Below are positions 44,979 through 57,881 of a stretch of 64,000 nucleotides of DNA, one piece after another. The stretch comes from Spiroplasma chinense (GTDB lineage: Bacteria > Bacillota_I > Bacilli_A > Mycoplasmatales > Mycoplasmataceae). A model generated the notes under the pieces. It was given only the letters and a program-made list of their open reading frames with translations. It was not told the origin of the DNA and searched no databases. The stretch spans positions 682,001 to 746,000 of the forward strand of contig NZ_CP043026.1 of assembly GCF_008086545.1 (NCBI RefSeq), read 5' to 3'. Each line of letters starts with the position of its first letter. Within the stretch, counting starts at the first letter, position 1. Position numbers and translations under genes: made by a program.

Positions 44979-45911
44979 ATGAAAAGAAATTCAATCAATG
45001 TAGTCGATAACGGATTTTTTTTATTAAATGAACACCAAAATTTTAGATTTGATAAAAATATAGCCAAAAAATCCATAGATAATATTCAGTTTCCAATAAT
45101 TGTTTTAGATACTGAATTTTTTAACCATTCTCACGATAACGGAGAATTCGAAGAAAAACTTTATAGCGAAAACCAAAAAGACTTAGTTTATGTTATTCAA
45201 TATAGTTTTGCAAAATCTTTAAAAGAAATTGCAAATAGAGATAATAGAAAAGCTATTAAATCAATAACTATTAAAAGAGCATTTAACGATTCAACATATG
45301 ATTTCCACACACAATACAAAAAAATGGTTGTAAGTTTTTTAAACATGTGTAGAAATAAAGAAATCAGAACTATAGTTTGTGCTGGGGCAAGTAATGATAT
45401 TAAAATCATTAATCAATGAATTAATGAAAATAAACAATTGTTTACAAGAAAATCTTTAAAAATGGCTTTCTATAACAAAGAAAGAAAAGAATTAAATGCA
45501 AATTATTTTGATATCTATGATATCTTGGAAAACTCTTATAGTTTTTCAAATACAACAAAAACTGGAGAAGAGTTTTACAATGCAAATAATTTGCCTACAG
45601 GAAAACAGGCAAATGATATGATTGCTTTAACAAGTAGTAAAAAGTTTTTTGATTGATTTGAAACTATTGGTGAAAATAACTTAAAAGACGATACTGATGA
45701 TATTCGTCATTTATGTTCCATAGCATATAGTTTCTTAGCAGCTCCAAATTCTAAGAAAGTTTCATTTGAACAATATAATCACATGAATAAAACTATTAAA
45801 AAGGTTATTGATCATTGTTATAATGACGTATTAAAAGTATTAATGTTTTTAGCATTTACTTATGAATTTATAGCATTACCATATGCAAAAAATAGTTATA
45901 TCAAAAAATAA
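44979..45911 (+). CDS. Possible DEDD-type exonuclease-fold protein
   Basis: 310 residues. Ile-Ile-Val-Leu-Asp-Thr-Glu-Phe-Phe (residues about 40-48) looks like Exo I of DEDD exonucleases (Asp-x-Glu). Ile-Val-Cys-Ala-Gly-Ala-Ser-Asn-Asp-Ile-Lys-Ile-Ile (about 132-144) could be Exo II, with Asp. A later Asp-Asp-Ile-Arg-His-Leu-Cys could supply Exo III residues, but the spacing is not classical. If real, it would cut single-stranded RNA or DNA ends. Otherwise it is unknown. Divergent from 44886, weak AGTAGGT ribosome site. Confidence 0.65.
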
Positions 45912-46036: not shown

Positions 46037-47194
46037 ATGAAATTTCAAAATGTAATGAATTGAATACAAAAAACTGAAGAAGAAAAGTTTTTTGCATGTA
46101 CTGGAATACAAATATCGAAAAATAAAGAATTGATTTTTGAAAGCTATACTGGTTATAGAGATATTGAAAATCAAAAACCATTAGAAAAAAATAGTTTATT
46201 TAGAATTTATTCACTTTCAAAACCTATTTCAACTTTAGCTTTTTTAATTTTTGCTAGAGAAAATTCAATAGATTTAAATGATCAAGTAAAAAAATATATA
46301 AGTTCATTTGAAAACTCAACTTTTTTGGATGGAGAAAGTATAAAAAAAGTTGAAAATTTAACAATTTTCCATTTATTAACTATGCAAAGTGGAATAACAT
46401 ACGGAATTGATGAAAGAGAATTTGGAAATATTAATGGTCAAAAAATGATTAAACTTTGAAAAGATTTTGAAAATAAAGAATTTACTTTGTTGGATTTTGT
46501 AAATGAACTTGCAAATATTCCGTTCATTTTTGAACCAGGAACCAAATGAAATTATGGATTAAATTTAGAAGTTTTAAGTGCAATAATTGAACAAAATTAT
46601 GAAGGTGGTTTTAAAACTTTTGTAAATGACAAAATTTTAAAACCATTAGGTATGAATGATACAAGTTTTTATATTCACGATAAATCTAGAAGTGTTGAAA
46701 TTAGTGAAACTAAATTAACTCAAAAGGGGAGAGAACTTTCAAAACATCCAACAGATAACTTTTTATTTCAAGATAACTATAGTGAACAAAATTGTTATTT
46801 AGCAGGTTCTTGTTTTGTAACAACTGTTGAAGATTATCAAAAATTTGCCAATTTATTATTGGATGGCAAAATAAATGACAAAAAATTAGTGGATTACGAT
46901 TTGATCGAAGATATGTCAAAAGACCAAATTTTTGAAAACAAAAGAGACTTTTATTTTGCGTATAACTCAGATTATTCTTATGGATATGGAGTAAGGGTGA
47001 GAATGGAAAACAATAAAGCACCATTAAGTAATGTTGGTGAGTGAGGGTGAGATGGTGTTTTAGGTTCACTTTGTATAATCGACAAAGAAAGTGGTGTTAC
47101 TGTTACTTTAATGCATTCGACATTGCCTGGATCTACAAGAATGATTGCAAGACAATTTATTAAAAGTTTATATTTAGATTTAGAAAAATTTTAA
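46037..47194 (+). CDS. Beta-lactamase-fold serine hydrolase
   Basis: 385 residues. The Ser59-x-x-Lys62 motif (Tyr-Ser-Leu-Ser-Lys-Pro) is preceded by Phe-Arg-Ile as in class C/esterase-type members. Leu-Leu-Thr-Met-Gln-Ser-Gly and Pro-Gly-Thr-Lys-Trp-Asn-Tyr-Gly-Leu-Asn provide the Tyr-x-Asn element, and Trp-Gly-Trp-Asp-Gly near the end stands for the third motif. The family includes esterases and D-amino-acid peptidases. As the host lacks a wall, an esterase or amidase is likelier than a penicillin-binding function. No signal peptide, so cytoplasmic. GAGGTAAG precedes ATG 46037. Several TGA Trp lie at motif positions. Confidence 0.88.
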
Positions 47195-47295
47195 TTCTAA
47201 TTATTTTTAGTTATATTTTTTTCCATTTTTACCATTAAAAGTGTTAAAATATTCTTATATCAATTTATAACACAAACAAGATGGAGGGAAAAAAT

Positions 47296-48207
47296 ATGAA
47301 AAAATTATTAAGTATTTTTACAGCATTATCAGTTACAGTTTCAACAGCATCAAGTGTAGTTGCTTGTGACAATGGTAATGAAAAATCAAATGCTCTTACA
47401 CCTTCAAAAAAAGGTAAATTAGGGAGCTTAAGTGGAACCAAAGTTCATCCTGGAATGGATTTTATTGATTTATCAACAGCATTTAGTAAAATTATTTTTA
47501 GCAAATATTCTTATGCAGGAATTTGAGGAGCTACAATAGAAATTCAAAACACAACAGATAACACTAATGATAGATTAGAAAAACTTGCTTGAAATAAAGA
47601 ATATAAAGCAATACCTTTTTCAGTAATTGGTGAAAGTTATTTTGAAGGTGAATACGTTTTTAACACAAAAAATTTAACTTTAAATGATGCATTTAACGAA
47701 AAAATAGCACCTTATGCTCTTATTGGTACAACTTATAGTTCTAGTAAGAATGCTGACCTAGTTGAAAAACTATTTGGTTGAAAAGATAAAACTGTAAATG
47801 TAGATGATTATTTCAACGTTAGTTGAGATGGTTCTGAAGATCCTTTAGTAAATTATGCCATTAAAGATGGATCAAAAGTACAAGTAAAAGCTTTACAAGA
47901 TCATGAAGCTACAGGTCTTAAAAAAGATGATTCTTTTGAATATACATTCAAAAAAATAAAAATCTCAAACTTAATAAACGACACAAATACATATAGAAGT
48001 TATATTTATGAAACTGAAAATATGTTTAAAAGTTCATCTTCATTTCCAATTGATACATTAGTCTATTTAAACACTAATTTTAAAAACTTTTTAACTCTTG
48101 AAAATCTTAGTTCAAAAGGAGAAATTCAAGGTGGAACTATTGTAAAAATTAATACAGAAGGTGTTGAAGGAATAATTGAAAAAGAAAATACTTCAGTTAA
48201 GCTTTAA
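47296..48207 (+). CDS. Lipoprotein, paralogue of the 15791-16702 gene
   Basis: 303 residues, exactly the length of its paralogue. Lipobox Val-Val-Ala-Cys24. Conserved landmarks shared with the paralogue include Trp-Asn-Lys-Glu-Tyr-Lys, Leu-Phe-Gly-Trp, Gly-Leu-Lys-Lys-x-Asp-Ser-Phe-Glu and the C-terminal Val-Lys-Ile-Asn-Thr. The start is at 47296, after GGAGGG; a Met five codons earlier overlaps that site. TATCAAT lies about 35 bases before the start, as in two other lipoprotein genes here. Surface protein, function unknown. Confidence 0.87.
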
Positions 48208-48224
48208 TCATAAAATATTTTAAA

Positions 48225-48250
48225 AAAAATCAATTTATTGATTTTTTTTA
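48225..48250 (+). terminator. Terminator after lipoprotein gene
   Basis: Arms AAAAATCAA and TTGATTTTT around TTTA, then a T run. Confidence 0.88.
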
Positions 48251-48366
48251 TGTTTAATTTCAAAAAATTTGAAAATTTTTTACATTTTTGCACTAATTTA
48301 ATTGTATTAATTTCCATTATTATATAAAATAAAAAAAGACAGCTATGAGAAAGAGGAAAAAATATT

Positions 48367-48456
48367 ATGCTTATAAAATCAACAAAAATAATTGATAAAC
48401 AAATAAAAAAACTAATCATAGTTGATGCGCGAAAACTTGGGCACAGAAACGTCTAG
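48367..48456 (+). CDS. Possible 29-residue leader peptide
   Basis: ATG 48367 is ten bases after AGAGG and 40 bases downstream of a -10-like TATAAA. The product is basic and Lys/Ile-rich, ending Ala-Arg-Lys-Leu-Gly-His-Arg-Asn-Val. The TAG stop lies within the left arm of the downstream hairpin, a layout used in translation-dependent attenuation. No homologue is known to me, and a 29-codon frame can occur by chance. Confidence 0.35.
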   Translation: MLIKSTKIIDKQIKKLIIVDARKLGHRNV

Positions 48457-48483
48457 ATAACTACTAGTAGACGTTTTGAGTGC
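48441..48483 (+). promoter_or_regulatory. Leader hairpin with competing downstream element
   Basis: GCAC and GTGC close an outer stem; AAACGTCTA (48447-48455) pairs with TAGACGTTT (48468-48476). The loop and right arm (48460-48473) can instead pair with CGTCTAGTAGT (48554-48564), just upstream of the permease ribosome site. No T run follows, so it is not a simple terminator. Confidence 0.5.
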
Positions 48484-48591
48484 GTAATTTTTGGACACAT
48501 TCTTTGTAAAAAAACAAATAATAGAATAATTAAAAATAATTAAATATACTGTCCGTCTAGTAGTGATATTAGAAAATGGAGAAATAGAATT

Positions 48592-50235
48592 ATGTCGTCA
48601 AGAGCAAAATCGTTAACGAAATTAGCAATAGTTTTTATGAGTTTTGTAACCATATTTGGTTTTAGAAACATTATAAATAATACACAATCATTTGGATTGT
48701 TTGCAGCCATCTTATTCTTAATTGGTGGGGCAATTTATGCAATACCTATGGTATTGGTAACTTCAGAATTTGGAAGTATTAAAAAATTAGAAAATCAAGA
48801 ATCTGGAATGGGAAGTTTTTGTACTTTTTCATTAGGGCAAAAACAAGGATTCTTAGCAAGTTGAGCTAGTTACTTTGGTAACTTATTCTTCTTTGCAACA
48901 ATTGCACCATTTACTGTAATGGGATTTAGTTTCCTATTTTACGGAGCAAATGGATTTGATGCAATAGCAAATTCACTTTATAAAAATAATGGATTAAGTC
49001 CAGATAATGCAGGAAGAGTTGCAACTTGTGTTCTAGCATTATTTTCAATTATGATTTTCTGAGCTGGAACATTTGTTTCAAAAATGGGCCCAAAATGACT
49101 TGGAAAAGCAACAACAATTGGTGGTATGGCAAGTTTAGGATTAGGAGTATTATTCATACTAATCGCATTATGTTATACAATTCCTGTAAAAGGAACTATA
49201 TCATGAGAATTAATTAAAGCAGGATTTAATCCTGCAACAGATTCTTCAGGAAACAAACAAGCAGATTGAGATTGATGATCATTCTTATCATCATTCCCAT
49301 GATTGATCTTTGCATACAATGGTATTGAAACTATGAGTGCATTTATTAAAGATACAAAAGGGGGAGCTAAAGGATTTAAAACAGCTTCACTTATTGGTAT
49401 GAGTATTGTTATTTGTTTAATGGTTGTTGGAGTAATTTTAGTTTCATTAACAATCGAAAAAGATACAATTGATGGTTGAGGAATACCAAATTCTTACTAC
49501 TACTCATATACAAGAATTTTAGGATTAGAAAATGATAGTGTTGCTGGAAAAGCAGTTATTAGAATAGTTGGTTTAATTACCGGTGTTAGTGGACTAGGTT
49601 CAATGTTCTTTTGAACAGCAGGACCTGCAAAAGTGTTCTTTTCAGAAGTACCTGAAAAAGCATTAGGAAAATGATTGGCAAAAACAGATAAAAATGGAAT
49701 GCCAACAAACGCATTATTAGTTCAAGGAGCAATCGTTACTTTTATTTTAATTTTAGTTGGTGTTACAACTAAAGGAAGTTTAGTTGATCCAACAGACCCA
49801 ACAAGTGATGTTACAACAACAGGAAGTTTTATTGAAAGATTATTTAACTCAGCTACAACTTTAGCTATTATCCAAATGTTCTTCTACTTCTGAGCATATG
49901 TTTGATTCAGATTAAAAAAAGATGATGAAGAAAGAGAGTATATATTCTTCAAAGGTAAACTAAAATGAATACCAATCACAATGTGTATTATAACTTTAGT
50001 GTTACTTGCAATTTCATTCTTCTTTGGAGCAATCCCAAGTCCGCAAACTTGAGAAGCAGGATGAGTTGATGCATTAATTGACTTCTTGATTATTTTTGGT
50101 GGTGCTGTATTCTTTATGGGTGCTGGTTTATTCATTTGATGATTCAACATGGAAAGACCTGAAAGATCAAAAGGAAATAATAAAAAAGTTGAACAAAAAA
50201 CAAAAGAAGCTAAAACTGAAAAAGTTAATGCTTAA
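48592..50235 (+). CDS. APC superfamily amino-acid permease, GadC-like
   Basis: 547 residues with about twelve membrane segments. The N-terminal Phe-Val-Thr-Ile-Phe-Gly-Phe-Arg-Asn and Gly-Gly-Ala-Ile-Tyr-Ala-Ile-Pro correspond to helices 1-2 of glutamate:GABA antiporter-type members. Phe-Ala-Tyr-Asn-Gly-Ile-Glu in the middle is the usual helix 6 motif (Gly-Ile-Glu). The C-terminus is a polar Lys/Glu tail. It sits in the cell membrane and imports or exchanges amino acids; the substrate is unknown. AATGGAG precedes ATG 48592. Trp is coded almost only by TGA. Confidence 0.9.
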
Positions 50236-50349: not shown

Positions 50350-51495
50350 ATGAAAGAGAACGCATTAGAATTGCACGAAAGATTAAAAGGAAAAATAAAA
50401 GTAGAATTAAAAGAAGATGTAACAAGTTACGAGGAATTAAGTATAGTTTATTCACCAGGTGTAGCTCAACCTTGTTTGGAAATTGCAAAAAATAATTCTG
50501 ACATTTATAAATATACTATGAAAGGAAATACTGTAGCTATTATTTCAAATGGTACTGCAGTATTGGGATTAGGAGATATTGGAGCTGATGCTTCATTACC
50601 AGTAATGGAAGGTAAAGCAGTTTTAGTAAAAAAATTTGCTGGAGTTAATGCTTTTCCAATCTGTATTGATGAAAAAGATCCTAAAAAATTAATAGAAATA
50701 ATAAAATCAATTGGTACTTCATTTGGAGCAATTAACTTAGAAGATATTGCAGCTCCTGATTGTTTTGAAATTGAAAGAACATTACAAGAAGAGATGAATA
50801 TCCCAGTGTTCCATGACGACCAACACGGAACTAGTGTAATTATTATTGCTGGAATTATTAATTCTGCAAGATTACTTAAAAAAGACATTAGTAAATTAAA
50901 AATTACTCTTTGTGGAACTGGAGCTGCAGGATATAACATTGCAAAAACAGTTCATAAACTTGGGGTTGAACAAATTCTTGCTTACAACAAATTTGGAGTT
51001 GTAAACTCAAGCAATAAAGATAAAAATGACCAATCTGTAAATGAATTATTAGAAAAAAATATAATCAATGATACTGATAAAAGTACATTAGCAGAAATTA
51101 TGGAAGGTGCAGATGTTTTTGTAGGTTTATCTGCGCCAAACATTGTTACAAGTGAAATGGTTTCAAAAATGAATAAAGATCCAATTTTATTTGCAATGGC
51201 AAATCCAATTCCAGAAATTACATTTGAAGAAATAAGTAAAGTAGAATATGGTGTATTTGGAACTGGTAGAAGCGACTATCCAAATCAAGTTAATAACGTT
51301 TTAGCTTTCCCAGGAATTTTAAAAGGACTACTTGAAACAGATGTAAAAGTTATGGATGAAGAAGCTAAAATTGTAATTGGTAAAGCAATAGCAAATTTAG
51401 TAACAGATGATGAGTTGAAAAAAGAATTTGTTTTACCAAATCTTTTCGATAACAGAGTTGTTGATGTCATAGTAAATGAAATGAAAAAATTATAA
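50350..51495 (+). CDS. Malic enzyme (NAD(P)-dependent malate dehydrogenase, decarboxylating)
   Basis: 381 residues, the short bacterial form without the phosphotransacetylase domain. Tyr-Ser-Pro-Gly-Val-Ala is the substrate loop with the catalytic Tyr. Gly-Asn-Thr-Val-Ala-Ile-Ile-Ser-Asn-Gly-Thr-Ala-Val-Leu-Gly-Leu-Gly is the family signature, Phe-His-Asp-Asp-Gln-His-Gly-Thr carries the metal-binding Asp residues, and Gly-Thr-Gly-Ala-Ala-Gly is the nucleotide-binding loop. It converts malate to pyruvate, CO2 and NAD(P)H in the cytoplasm. Located just before the iol operon but with its own terminator. No TGA codon interrupts it. Confidence 0.95.
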   Translation: MKENALELHERLKGKIKVELKEDVTSYEELSIVYSPGVAQPCLEIAKNNSDIYKYTMKGNTVAIISNGTAVLGLGDIGADASLPVMEGKAVLVKKFAGVNAFPICIDEKDPKKLIEIIKSIGTSFGAINLEDIAAPDCFEIERTLQEEMNIPVFHDDQHGTSVIIIAGIINSARLLKKDISKLKITLCGTGAAGYNIAKTVHKLGVEQILAYNKFGVVNSSNKDKNDQSVNELLEKNIINDTDKSTLAEIMEGADVFVGLSAPNIVTSEMVSKMNKDPILFAMANPIPEITFEEISKVEYGVFGTGRSDYPNQVNNVLAFPGILKGLLETDVKVMDEEAKIVIGKAIANLVTDDELKKEFVLPNLFDNRVVDVIVNEMKKL

Positions 51496-51702: not shown

Positions 51703-52497
51703 ATGTATATAAAATCAACAAGTTTGATTGAGAAAGATGGTTTTACAGAATATTGTAATACCAAAACAAATTTTATGAATTTAGATGTAGGTTTACTAAA
51801 ACTATCTAAAGGAGAAAAATTTGAATTCAAAGCATGTGGTAGAGAAAAAGCGTTCGACCTGCTTGAAGGAGAAATTGAAATCAAAATAAATAACGATATT
51901 AATCTTAAGTTTGAAAGAGCAAGTTTATTTCATGATAAACCTTCAGTTTTATTAGCTGATAAAACTTTTAACATTGAAATAACTTGTTTGAGTGAGAAAA
52001 GTGAATTAATAGTACAAGCAACTCATAATGAAAAAGAATTTGGTTATAAAGTTTGAAATAAAGATGACTTAGAAATTAGTATTTCAGGTCAAGATCAAGC
52101 TCTAGGTACTTGCACAAGAAAAGTAATTCAATTCTTTGATTATGAAAGTTTCCCAGAATCAAATATGGTTATGGGAGAAGTTATATGTAGTCCAGGTCAA
52201 TGAGCAAGTTGACCTCCGCATAGACATTATCAACCAGAAATGTATCTTTTCAAATTTAATAAACCTGAAGGTTTTGGAGTAAGTTTTGTAGGTGATGATG
52301 CAATTAAAGTTATGAATAATGACGCAACTTGTATTCCAGGACAATTGTTACACCCAACAGTGTGTGCACCTGGTTACATAATGTGATATTGTTGAATGAT
52401 ACCTAACTTACCAAATAAACCATGAGTTGAAAGAAGTTTCGATGAAAGATATGAATGAACTTCAACTAATGATGTTGAAATTTCAAAAATGAGGTAG
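51703..52497 (+). CDS. iolB: 5-deoxy-glucuronate isomerase
   Basis: 264 residues, usual IolB length. A double cupin: the C-terminal cupin has Pro-Pro-His173-x-His175-x-x-x-Glu179-Met-Tyr, the metal-binding set, and Thr-Arg-Lys-Val sits just before it. IolB isomerises 5-deoxy-glucuronate to 2-deoxy-5-keto-gluconate in inositol breakdown. AGGAGAAGG precedes ATG 51703. It is the first gene of the iol operon, directly downstream of the operator-like repeat. Its many conserved Trp are TGA-coded. Confidence 0.95.
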
Positions 52498-52502
52498 TTA
52501 TA

Positions 52503-54425
52503 ATGAATAAAATAAAACTTTCTGTAGGGGAAGCAATTGTAAAATTTATTGATAATCAATTTTTAGAAATTGATGGAGTCAAATCAAAAATAGTTGACGG
52601 AGTATTTACAATTTATGGACATGGTAATGTAGTTGGATTGGGTGAAGCTTTAACAAACTTCAAACACAATCTAAAAGTTATGCAAGGAAAAAATGAACAA
52701 GGTATGGCCCATATTGCTATAGGTTATGCAAAACAGAATTTAAGAAGAAAAGTTTTAGCAGTAACTTCATCAGTTGGTCCTGGTTCTGCAAATTTAGTAA
52801 CAGCTGCAGGAACTGCAACTGCAAACAGAATACCTTTACTATTATTTCCTGGAGATACTTTTGCAAATAGACAACCAGATCCAGTACTTCAACAAATAGA
52901 ATTTGACAACAATAACGATAACAGTACTAATGATGCGTTAAGAGCTGTTTCAAAATTTTGAGACAGAATTTATAGACCTGAACAAATTATGTCATCGCTC
53001 ATAAATGCTTTTAGAGTTTTGACAGATCCCGAAAATACAGGTACAGTTACAATTTGTTTACCTCAAGATGTACAAGGAGAAGTTTATGATTATCCACAAG
53101 ACTTCTTCAAAGAAAGAATACATTATTTAGAAAGACCAAGACCAAGTTACAGAGCATTAGAAGATGCTACAGAATTAATTAAAAGCGCTAAAAAACCATT
53201 AATGATAATTGGTGGGGGTGCTTTATATAGTGAAGCAAGTGAAGAATTAAAAAAATTTAGTTCTACTTTTAAAATTCCTTTCGGTTTAACACAAGCTGGA
53301 AAAGGAACAATAGAACATACACATGAATTTAATCTTGGAGGGATTGGAGTTACTGGAACTATGTGTGCAAACATAGCTGCTAAACAAGCCGATCTAATTA
53401 TTGGTATTGGAACAAGATATACAGACTTTACAACAGGGTCAAAATCTTTATTTAATGATAATGCAAAATTCATAAACATAAATTTAAATAAAAAAGATGT
53501 AATGAAGTTAGATGCTCTTAGTTTAAAGGGTGATGCAAAAACTACAATTAATTATTTAACAGATCAATTAGAACAATTTGATTATGTTTCGGAATGAAAA
53601 GATGAAATATCTACTTTGAAAAGTGAATGAGAAAAAGAAGTCGAAGTTATTTCATCAGGAAAAGATATTTTAATTAAAGGTTTAGATAGTGAAAAAGTTG
53701 TAGAAGAATTTAAAAATGTATTTGATAATTACTTTCACCAAACACAATTGTTTAAAGCAATTGAAAGTGAAATTAAAAAAATGGATGATGATGCAATAGT
53801 TGTTGGTGCTGCTGGAAGTTTACCTGGAGATTTACAAAGATTATGAAATGTAAATAGTGTAAACACTTACTCAGTTGAATATGGATATTCATGTATGGGA
53901 TATGAAATCGCAGCAGCCATTGGAGTAAAAATGGCCGAACCAAATAAAGAAGTTTATGCATTTGTTGGAGATGGAAGTTTCTTAATGTTACATTCTGAAA
54001 TACTTACTGCACTACAAGAAAATGTAAAAATAAATATTATTTTATTAGATAACTCTGGATATGGTTGCATTGATAACCTTCAAACTTCAAAAGGAATTAA
54101 TTCTAATTCAACACACTTTAGAAAAAGAAAAGAAAATAATATCTTAGACGGTGAATTGTTAAATGTAAATTATTCAATGATCGCACAAGGATATGGTTGT
54201 TTTTCAAAACCTGTTAATAATTTTGAAGAATTAGAATCAGCTTTTAGAGAAGCTAGAGAACAAGAAAAAGTAACTTTACTTGAGTTCAAAGTTTTACCAA
54301 AAACTATGACAGAAGGTTATGAAACTTGATGAAGAGTTGGATTAACTGACAATGGTAAAACCAATTTAATAAAAAGTAAAAAAGAAGAAGATAAAAAAGT
54401 AATAGAAAGAATAAAAGAATATTAA
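52503..54425 (+). CDS. iolD: 3D-trihydroxycyclohexane-1,2-dione acylhydrolase
   Basis: 640 residues, a thiamine diphosphate enzyme of normal IolD size. Gly-His-Gly-Asn-Val, Lys-Asn-Glu-Gln-Gly-Met-Ala-His (catalytic Glu region) and Ser-Ser-Val-Gly-Pro-Gly-Ser-Ala-Asn lie in the PYR domain. Gly-Asp-Gly-Ser-Phe with Asp-Asn-Ser-Gly-Tyr-Gly near 485-520 binds ThDP-Mg. It hydrolyses the ring dione to 5-deoxy-glucuronate. A GAGG site is inside the iolB end, five bases between genes. Followed by iolG. Confidence 0.96.
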
Positions 54426-54443
54426 GAAAGGAATTAATATAAA

Positions 54444-55448
54444 ATGAAAAAAATGATAGCAGGAGTATTTGGTGCTGGAAGAATTGGAAAATTTCACGTT
54501 GAAAATTTATTACAATATGATAACGTTGAAGTTAAAACAATTTGTGATGTTCAACTAGACCATTTAATAGAATGAAATAAAGATAAAAACATTTTTCTTA
54601 CAAAAAACGAAGATGATATTTTTGATGATAAAGAAATAAATGCAATATTTATTTTCTCTTCAACAGATCAACATATTTCTCAGCTAATAAAAGCAACTCA
54701 AAATGTTGATTATATTTTTATGGAAAAACCAATCAGTAAATCTATTGATGCAACTTTAGAAGCTTGAGAAATTGTAAAAAGCAAATCTAAAACTATTCAA
54801 CTTGGATTTAACAGAAGGTTTGATCCAAACTTTAAAAAAGTTAAAGAAGCAAGAGTAAAAGAAACAATAGGAGTACCTCACGTTCTAAAAATTACTTCAC
54901 GTGATCCAGAGCCTCCAGGAATAGATTATGTTAAAGTTTCTGGTGGAATATTTATGGACATGGCAATACACGACTTTGATATGAGTAGATATATTGTAGG
55001 TTCTGATGTAGAAGAAGTATTTGTAATGGGAGATGCTCTGGTAAATCCAAAAATTAAAGAAGCTGGAGATATTGATACAGCCATTATTCAATTGAAATTT
55101 GCTAACAATGCATTGGGTGTAATTGATATTTCAAGAGAAGCTGTTTATGGATACGACCAAAGATTAGAATTATTTGGAAGTAAAGGAGCAATAATTGCAG
55201 ATAACAAAGTTGAAACTTCAACTAAGTTACTTACAAAAGATTGCTCTTGTGTAGATAATCCACTTCACTTCTTTATTGAAAGATATATTGATGCTTACAA
55301 AAACGAATATGAAACATTCATTGAAGCATTTATGAACAACGATAATGTTATTTGTTCATTTGAAGATGGATTAAAAGCAGAATTAATTGCAGAAGCATGT
55401 AAAAAATCATATGAAACAAAAACAGTTGTAAAGGTTAGGGGAATTTAA
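54444..55448 (+). CDS. iolG: myo-Inositol 2-dehydrogenase
   Basis: 334 residues. Gly-Val-Phe-Gly-Ala-Gly-Arg-Ile-Gly is the NAD-binding motif, Glu-Lys-Pro carries the catalytic Lys, and Asp-Met-Ala-Ile-His-Asp-Phe-Asp-Met-Ser-Arg contains the Asp and His of inositol dehydrogenases. It oxidises myo-inositol to scyllo-inosose, the first step. AGAAAGGAA lies upstream. Compare the second Gfo/Idh/MocA protein at 28214, which lacks this last motif. Confidence 0.95.
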
Positions 55449-55449
55449 T

Positions 55450-56349
55450 ATGTTTAAAAAAGAAGACATTAAAATTGGAGTTGCTCCAATTGCTTGAACA
55501 AACGATGACCTTCCAGAACTTGGCGGAGAAACTCCATTTGAAACTTGTATAAGTGAAATGGCAGAAGCCGGTTATGAAGGTTGTGAAGTTGGAAATAAAT
55601 ATCCAAAAGATCCAAAAGTTTTAAAAGAAGTATTAGCAGAAAAAGGATTACAAGTATGTAATGCATGACTAAGTACTTTCTTTACTGAAGGAAAAATACA
55701 AGAAACAATTGATGACTTTATTAAACATAGAGATTTTCTTTATGAACTTGGAGCAAAAGTTATTGGAGTATGTGAACAAGGTAAATCAATTCAAGGATTA
55801 GACAAAAAGTTATTTAAAGACAAACCATACTTTACAGAACAAGAATGAAGTTGATTGTTTGAAGGTATGAATAAAATTGCAGAACTAGCTGAAGAAAAAG
55901 GAATGAAAGTTTGTTTCCATGAACACAATGGAACAGGTGTACAAACTAACGAAGAAACAATTAAGTTAATGGAAAATACTAATGACAATGTTTACTTACT
56001 ATTAGATACAGGACATGTATTTTATAGTGAAGGAACTCAAGAAGCATTAGAATTCTTAACAAAAAAATATGCAAAAAGAATTGTACACGTTCATTTAAAA
56101 GATGTTGATATGAAAGTTAGACAAGAAGTAATTGATAACGAATTAAGTTTCCTTGATGGTGTTAAAAAAAATATGTTTGTAGTTCCAGGAAAAGGAAGTA
56201 TAGATTTCGAACCTATATTTAAAATTTTATCTGAAGCAGGTTATAAAGGTTGATTCTTAGTTGAAGCTGAAGGAGATCCTTCAATTAATAACCCACTTGA
56301 AAATGCAAAATTTGCAAGACAATTTATTAAAGAAAAAATAGGATTATAG
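55450..56349 (+). CDS. iolE: Inosose dehydratase
   Basis: 299 residues, TIM-barrel sugar isomerase/epimerase fold. Ile-Gly-Val-Ala-Pro-Ile-Ala-Trp-Thr-Asn-Asp-Asp is the typical IolE opening. Phe-His-Glu-His-Asn-Gly-Thr, Leu-Asp-Thr-Gly-His and His-Val-His-Leu-Lys-Asp supply metal-binding residues. It dehydrates scyllo-inosose. The gene starts one base after iolG; its stop codon overlaps the ribosome site of iolA. Trp codons are TGA. Confidence 0.96.
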
Positions 56350-56360
56350 AGGTAAAACTT

Positions 56361-57881
56361 TTGAAAGATAACTATTTAACTTTAGAAATAAAAAATCTTC
56401 AGGAAAAATATAAGAACGGAATCTTAAACTTTACAAACAACATGTTTATGTCAAACGATAACAAAAAAACTTTACCAGTTTACTGCCCTTTAAATGGTGA
56501 GGTGCTATCTGAAGTAACAGATAGTGATGAAAAAGACTTAGAAGAAATTGTTTTTGCAATTGAACAAAAACAAAAAATTTGAGAAGGCTATACTTTCAAA
56601 AAAAGAGCAGACATAGTTTACAAATATAGAAATATTTTAATTGATAACATTGATGAACTTTCAATGTCTATTCACTTAGAAAATGGAAAATGTTTAGCAG
56701 ATGCAAAAGCAGAAGTTTTGAAATCAATTGAAACAGTTGAGTTTGCATGTTCAATGCCAAACATTATTGCGGGAAGACTTGAAGAAGTTTCTACTAATGT
56801 GTGGGCAATGGATGAGGCAAGACCTTTAGGAATTGTTTCATCAATTACACCATTCAACTTCCCTGCAATGGTTCCACATTGAACAATTGCACAAGCAATT
56901 GTTCTTGGAAACTCAATGATTTTAAAACCATCAGAACAAACTCCAATTACTTCTCAGTTAATTGCGAAATATTGAAAACAAGCAGGGCTTCCTGATGGAG
57001 TATTCAACTTAGTAAATGGTGGAACAAAAATTGTTCAAGCCATTTGTGACAACCCAAAAATTAAAGCGGTTTCATTTGTTGGATCTACAAAAGTTGCAGA
57101 AATTGTTTATAAAAGAGCTAGTGGTAATTTAAAAAGAGCATTAACATTAGGTGGTGCTAAAAACTTTATCACTGTTCTTCCAGACAGTCCTGTAAATTCT
57201 ACTGTAAGAGATTTAATCTCTTCAGCTTATGGAATGGTTGGACAACGTTGTATGGCAGCAAGTGTAATTATTGCAGTAGATGATTTTAAAATTAAAGATA
57301 AATTAGTAGAAGAACTAAACAACATGTCTGTAAGACCAAATGCTGATTTTACAGAAGGACTTTCACCAGTTTCAAGTTTAGCTGGTGTTGAAAACATTAA
57401 AAAATATATAGACTTTGCAAAAGATAGCGGAGCAAAAATTTTAGTTAATGGTTTAGACTTCAAACCTGAAAAAGAATTTGAAAATGGTTACTACTTAGGA
57501 CCAACTTTAATTGATTGAAGAGGGTGTGAAGACAAAATGTCACCAGACGAAATCTTTGGACCTGTTTTGGAAATAGTGGGAGCAAGTAATTTAGAAGAAG
57601 CTATAAAAATTCAAAACAATTCTCCTTATGGAAATGCAGCATCAATATTTACAGGTAAAGGACTTGAAGCTTTCGAAGCTATCAAACACTTTAAAGCAGG
57701 GATGTTAGGAATAAATATTGGTGTACCAGTTCCAAGAGAACCAATGTCATTTGGTGGAATAAAACTTTCAAAATTTGGATTTGGAGATATTACAGGTCCA
57801 AGTGCAAATCAATTTTGAACCGATCTTGTAAAAGTTACAATGAAATGAAATCCAGAATCTAAAAAGGATTGACTAAGTTAG
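56361..57881 (+). CDS. iolA: Methylmalonate-semialdehyde dehydrogenase (acylating)
   Basis: 506 residues. The start is TTG 56361: AGAGG (56348-56352, overlapping the iolE stop) is eight bases upstream, while the next Met is 27 codons downstream. Pro-Phe-Asn-Phe-Pro-Ala-Met-Val-Pro, Lys-Pro-Ser-Glu-Gln and Gly-Gln-Arg-Cys297-Met-Ala (catalytic Cys) define this CoA-acylating aldehyde dehydrogenase. It converts malonate semialdehyde to acetyl-CoA and CO2 with NAD, ending the iol path. One conserved Trp is the rarer TGG. Confidence 0.95.

Follow-up and report, generated by a model that had tools for sequence, protein, structure and literature searches.

In the 1.37-Mb genome of Spiroplasma chinense, in which TGA is read as Trp, we examined a 64,000-nt stretch of contig NZ_CP043026.1 (positions 682,001 to 746,000; hereafter the window, with positions counted from its first letter). 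It carries a gene for an amino-acid permease of the APC superfamily and, ahead of this gene, a leader with a short open reading frame (ORF) and a two-part hairpin, P1/P2 (Table 1). A preliminary description, made from the letters alone, had called the permease GadC-like. The amino-acid permease part of this label is borne out by profile search (AA_permease_2, E 2e-30), while YjeM and GadC, the nearest named models, match far under their cut-offs, so that the GadC likeness is a distant one. The promoter-like elements, the 29-codon ORF with its ribosome site, and the hairpin holding the ORF's stop in its left arm were all found where that description had placed them. Comparison at the sequence level reveals, across relatives, an ORF with the look of a translated one, an invariant CGA codon at invariant spacing, a covarying P1/P2 and a P2 loop complementary to a downstream element. 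We consider it reasonably probable that these make up a leader-ORF-controlled switch acting via P1/P2 and loop pairing.

Of 20 genomes from the genus, 11 carry the permease, as do 2 of 40 others from the family. Upstream of ten of the eleven same-genus copies, the window counted, lies a common layout: a TATAAT-like -10, a ribosome site, a short ORF, CGA-AAR-(CTT/ATA/ATG), a stop, GCAC, P2 and GUGC. This layout was not found at the eleventh same-genus copy (locus L037), nor at the more distant copies L038 and L039. In a permease tree that left out L039, the ten copies with the element group in a single clade with support 100/99, to the exclusion of L037 and L038. At L037 (1240-1500, genome G018), the outgroup permease has an unrelated leader with a ~43-codon ORF, a GGAGG site and a strong AU terminator directly before the permease ribosome site; it is possibly a second attenuator type.

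A covariance model of the element had a single match in each of the ten genomes, with E 1.5e-5 to 2.3e-9 and always 5' of this permease, and a search of 198 genomes gave no convincing match beyond these ten leaders. Weak matches outside the genus (E 0.004-0.09) were rejected as chance, being mostly in or beside unrelated ORFs and never preceding an amino-acid permease. A DNA search with the leader sequence returned AT-rich spurious matches only and is uninformative, the sequence of the element being too divergent for such a search. Rfam gave zero matches to the window at gathering score and, when relaxed (E=10 for the window, E=1 for relatives), only unrelated sRNA families far under threshold. 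No family, T-box and lysine riboswitch among them, was matched, in agreement with the earlier remark that no known riboswitch consensus is recognisable here. The leader is a genus-specific regulatory leader that is absent from the databases searched, Rfam included.

The P1/P2 hairpin is maintained by compensating changes. P1 (GCAC/GUGC) is followed by a P2 whose sequence varies by species while its pairing is kept. Over the ten sequences, with P2 arms picked by eye and loops trimmed for the covariance model, a choice that favours the structure, 99.1% of cells in P1/P2 were paired, with 25 double changes, as compared with 75.7% and 7.8 in shuffles and 27-61% of cells for slid partners. The covariation score was 0.707, compared with 0.216 for shuffles and no more than 0.24 when the partners were slid. 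Single-sequence folds carried out independently gave the P1/P2 hairpin at nine of ten loci (L033 favours a competing fold), and RNAalifold recovered P1 and part of P2 from the untrimmed alignment. The window leader is more stable than its shuffles (z = -3.35). Unpaired conserved bases are confined to the CGA-AAR-NUN codons, with P2, its loop and the linkers freely variable. An A-rich CGAAAAC can be paired by eye with U-rich sequence after P1 in some species, both being of low complexity, and this extra pairing was set aside. Similarity between the segments flanking the hairpin (AAAACTTGGGCACA and AATTTTTGGACACA), to which the preliminary description had drawn attention, did not hold up: relatives keep only the first (CGAAAACTTNNGCAC), and the resemblance itself is unconserved.

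The leader ORF bears the marks of translation. At nine of ten loci the CGA is preceded, in frame, by an ATG that has a ribosome site; per locus, shuffled sequences yield this arrangement in 0-1.1% of cases. In the remaining one, L028, the ORF is there too, but its ribosome site is poor. An exact TATAAT stands at the matching place upstream of the ORF in eight of the ten species, and the ORF and P1/P2 hairpin singled out earlier are conserved in the nine relatives; none of the grounds for refutation named in the preliminary description holds. The leader peptides differ freely in their N-terminal parts and end in R-K-(L/I/M), 0-5 codons and the stop. Codon 2 is AAA or AAG and codon 3 is CTT, ATA or ATG (L/I/M), changes that are synonymous or conservative and therefore a coding signature. 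The first of these codons, CGA, is invariant (10/10), and its first base lies 11 nt from P1 at every locus. By comparison, CGA makes up 6 of the 512 Arg codons in the window (1.2%) and 3 of 90 in the permeases, and the remaining Arg codons of the leader ORFs are AGA, AGG or CGT. Because only ACG and TCT anticodons were found among tRNA-Arg genes, CGA must be decoded by the ACG (inosine) tRNA. CGA is one of the rare Arg codons that slow or stall ribosomes when assayed in the Salmonella his leader (PMC4046918). Programmed frameshifting at CGA-AAA-CTT was rejected, the downstream frame not being sensible. Among the G000 tRNA loci (L074-L102) are a tRNA-Trp(CCA) and a TCA-anticodon tRNA labelled SeC by ARAGORN, which should be the UGA-reading tRNA-Trp.

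The P2 loop is complementary to an element shortly before the permease ribosome site. In the window, the earlier proposal that CGTCTAGTAGT can pair with the loop and right arm is supported against shuffles (loop alone, p=0.007; loop and right arm, 0/300). Over the eight long leaders, each species' own loop and element pair at -7.2 kcal/mol versus -4.3 kcal/mol when swapped between species (p=0.00015). Taken locus by locus, the window, L034 and L035 are well supported and L036 and L033 moderately so; L028, L031 and L032 are unsupported on their own. The element mostly ends 24-36 nt 5' of the permease ATG, and what the leaders share is the loop helix, placed 10-23 nt 5' of the ribosome site; a hairpin loop complementary to sequence just upstream of a ribosome-binding site, as in repZ, is thus supported for the eight long leaders taken together. 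The preliminary description had held the hairpin and this pairing to be mutually exclusive. In the window, L033 and L036, though not in every leader, the pairing does extend into the P2 right arm, and this extension would exclude P2. The window's core pairing, the 8-nt CTAGTAGT with ACTACTAG, lies wholly inside the loop, so a pseudoknot is possible and exclusion of the hairpin is not required; in several species the pairing is likewise confined to the loop.

Table 1. Features of the permease leader and its surroundings in the window.
Feature	Position	Strand	Basis or remark
ORF	44979-45911		
Beta-lactamase-fold gene and lipoprotein gene	46037-48207		between ORF 44979-45911 and leader
Perfect 14-bp inverted repeat, 2-nt loop (TAAAAAAAATCAAT/ATTGATTTTTTTTA)	48221-48250		between lipoprotein gene and leader
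Promoter-like -10, TATAAA	48323-48328	+	consensus match only
Leader-ORF ribosome-binding site, GAGGA	48353-48357	+	sequence
Leader ORF, 29 codons, peptide MLIKSTKIIDKQIKKLIIVDARKLGHRNV, then stop	48367-48456	+	homologous ORFs in 9 relatives
CGA AAA CTT (Arg-Lys-Leu), conserved codons	48430-48438	+	alignment of 10 loci
P1 left arm GCAC	48441-48444	+	folding, covariation
P2 left arm GAAACGTCTA	48446-48455	+	folding, covariation; ends with first two bases of leader stop
Leader stop TAG	48454-48456	+	spans boundary of P2 left arm and loop
P2 loop GATAACTACTAG	48456-48467	+	last 8 nt complementary to downstream element
P2 right arm TAGACGTTTT	48468-48477	+	folding, covariation
P1 right arm GTGC	48480-48483	+	folding, covariation
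Possible linker hairpin P3, GGACA 48493-48497 / TGTCC 48550-48554	48493-48554	+	weak
Alternative local hairpin UCCGUCUAGUA-GUGA-UAUUAGA-AAA-UGGA	48552-48580	+	would mask permease ribosome site; window only, unconserved
Downstream element CGTCTAGTAGT	48554-48564	+	pairs with P2 loop (core 48557-48564) and partly P2 right arm
Permease ribosome-binding site GGAG	48578-48581	+	sequence
APC-superfamily amino-acid permease (AA_permease_2), 547 aa, code 4	48592-50235	+	profile searches
Malic-enzyme-like gene	50350-51495		downstream of permease
Myo-inositol utilisation cluster	51703-57881		IolB 51703-52497, IolD 52503-54425, further genes

As expected of a switch run by a leader ORF, a conserved, translatable ORF overlaps or abuts a conserved RNA structure, and we looked for the output on which such a switch might act. 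No intrinsic terminator was found between the hairpin and the permease in the window, L028, L029, L030 or L031; a hairpin and U-run after P1/P2 score better than shuffles in three of ten leaders (L032, L033 and L034), and terminator scores in L035 and L036 are no better than shuffles. A terminator was therefore rejected as the general conserved output, being convincing only in L032-L034. The earlier label of attenuation leader is thus largely apt for the conserved ORF, hairpin and distant pairing, while attenuation of the terminator type is not their common denominator. Masking of the permease Shine-Dalgarno sequence fared similarly. In constrained folding the ribosome site of the window would be masked by default and freed on stalling (accessibility 0.29 rising to 0.55-0.62), and L032 responds as well, but the others do not; since masking holds only in part in the window and is not a shared property, it too was rejected as a general output. 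Nor did the ten leaders have several regulatory codons for one amino acid: there is a single rare CGA, followed by Lys. In our best explanation, the switch would act mainly on permease translation.

We propose the following sequence of events, in which ribosome position is the switch, CGA decoding the sensor and loop pairing the activating step. Transcription would begin just 5' of the leader ORF, and a ribosome translating this ORF would reach the very rare CGA arginine codon. P1 starts 11 nt past the first base of CGA, which is where the front of a ribosome holding this codon in its A site is expected. If the ribosome waits there, P1/P2 could form ahead of it, the loop and element could then form a pseudoknot, and the permease would be translated. 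A ribosome that has advanced to the stop codon, which lies within or beside P1/P2, would instead open P1 and part of P2 and so prevent loop-element pairing. Provided that the permease is meant to rise in shortage, the waiting state should be the ON state; low charging of Arg-tRNA(ICG), read as arginine shortage, would in this model lead to more permease synthesis. Permease expression thus probably depends on leader translation, as judged by comparison among species, which is one half of what had been suggested earlier; the other half, dependence on a ligand through a riboswitch, is weakened. That arginine, through CGA, is the signal of the switch is possible yet doubtful. We put forward only tentatively the view that this is an undescribed Mollicutes leader class in which the sensor is a single, extremely rare CGA, decoded by an inosine tRNA and situated exactly one ribosome edge ahead of a hairpin, with a loop pseudoknot relaying the signal to a site shortly 5' of the ribosome site of the following gene.

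Several observations weigh against this proposal. The presence of arcA does not track that of the permease across genomes, and a link with the arginine deiminase pathway was rejected on this ground. Just one Arg codon is conserved in the leader, where classical leaders have several, and the invariance of CGA could be a constraint on RNA sequence. In constrained folding, Shine-Dalgarno access did not change consistently with ribosome position or when the element was held, the window and L032 alone responding. Loop pairing in L031 and L032 is at chance level, and in the shorter leaders of sister species L029 and L030 neither a linker hairpin nor a convincing loop-pairing element was found.

Other explanations account for parts of these data. 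The R-K-(L/I/M) ending, perhaps with a small molecule, might arrest the ribosome near the stop codon and so remodel P1/P2, with a ligand rather than tRNA charging as the signal. Arrest peptides acting near a stop codon are exemplified by TnaC, SpeFL and ErmCL. Consistent with such arrest, the motif is kept despite unconserved N-terminal parts, its Lys and Leu codons change synonymously or conservatively, and the stop follows within five codons, so that the motif would be in or near the peptidyl-transferase centre. A three-residue motif 0-5 codons from the stop is, however, unusual for stop-codon arrest, and peptide identity alone fails to account for the strict use of CGA; we regard nascent-peptide arrest as rather unlikely. 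Transcription attenuation, with P3 as an intrinsic terminator and read-through set by ribosome position, draws on the hairpins with U-runs of L032-L034 and on the strong terminator in the outgroup leader L037. It is made improbable by the terminator results for the other leaders given above and by the failure to find a conserved antiterminator, and the conserved loop-pairing element lies 3' of P3, so that it would be untranscribed when termination is decided.

A metabolite-binding riboswitch beside a chance ORF would fit a structured, conserved, genus-specific transporter leader with a loop pseudoknot, a layout common in riboswitches. We find it highly improbable, because the conserved unpaired bases lie only in in-frame codons, with P2, loop and linkers variable; moreover, the substitutions are coding-like, the ORF with its ribosome site is far above chance, and no Rfam family exceeds threshold. 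Finally, the CGTCTA/TAGACG repeats in the window resemble operator half-sites, and a DNA-binding regulator might use the inverted repeats as operators, or everything might be chance. A protein site would keep its sequence, whereas P2 and loop sequences are wholly different among species with pairing kept, and the element 11-mer occurs exactly once in the genome. As a main explanation, operators or chance are already refuted by covariation, and we accord them next to no probability.

The surroundings of the leader differ among relatives. Two genes, one for a beta-lactamase-fold protein and one for a lipoprotein, separate the ORF at 44979-45911 from the leader in the window. A homologue of this ORF lies immediately before the leader in genomes G010, G016, G011, G012, G014 and G007, which suggests that the two genes were inserted later. 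Lipoproteins of the window genome match plasma/spiralin lipoprotein models. The inverted repeat between the lipoprotein gene and the leader is likely a two-way terminator, and similar sequence occurs at G000:C1:912131-912179. Downstream of the permease are a malic-enzyme-like gene and, shortly past it, the myo-inositol utilisation cluster.

Wall-less bacteria have few transcription factors, and ribosome-driven RNA switches may therefore carry part of their nutrient control; the literature searched describes no such leader-ORF attenuator from any of them. If CGA is the sensor, a codon of which these genomes are nearly free would have found a use in this leader, and a class of substrates would suggest itself for the permease. 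As proposed, it would also be a concrete case of a loop pseudoknot under the control of upstream translation.

The leader is best classed as a variant of known leader-ORF-controlled RNA switches. It should not be assigned to the trp or ermC type, nor to the riboswitches, because the defining feature of each was looked for and not found, or the evidence points otherwise. In his and trp attenuators, as here, regulatory codons in a leader ORF precede a hairpin; unlike them, this leader has no codon run and no conserved terminator. In ermC-type attenuators, where a ribosome stands on the leader ORF determines which of the RNA pairings forms, with a masked ribosome site as the hallmark; here, conserved masking was not found outside the window. 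In the Salmonella speF leader, orf34, Arg codons and a hairpin next to the stop sense arginine (PMC6386406). Both leaders have a short ORF (SpeFL in speF), conserved Arg codon(s) and a hairpin at or after the stop, whose formation is proposed to follow the site at which the ribosome waits, and the target is in basic amino-acid/polyamine metabolism for speF and a permease here. The speF leader differs in its two consecutive Arg codons and its Rho and RNase G steps; here, the Arg codon is one lone CGA, the ribosome site is preceded by a loop-pairing element, the gene downstream encodes a permease and the host lacks a cell wall. We saw no sequence relation between the two leaders. In the repY-repZ system, the repY leader ORF is translated first. 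In this IncI-type plasmid system, repZ translation is reported to depend on a pseudoknot upstream of its ribosome-binding site (Asano and Mizobuchi 1998, as cited in PMC8383071). Although repZ is a replication gene controlled by an antisense RNA, of which none is known for the permease leader, and the sequences are unrelated, the two are alike in that the leader ORF runs into or up to a hairpin, and the loop of this hairpin can pair 5' of the ribosome-binding site.
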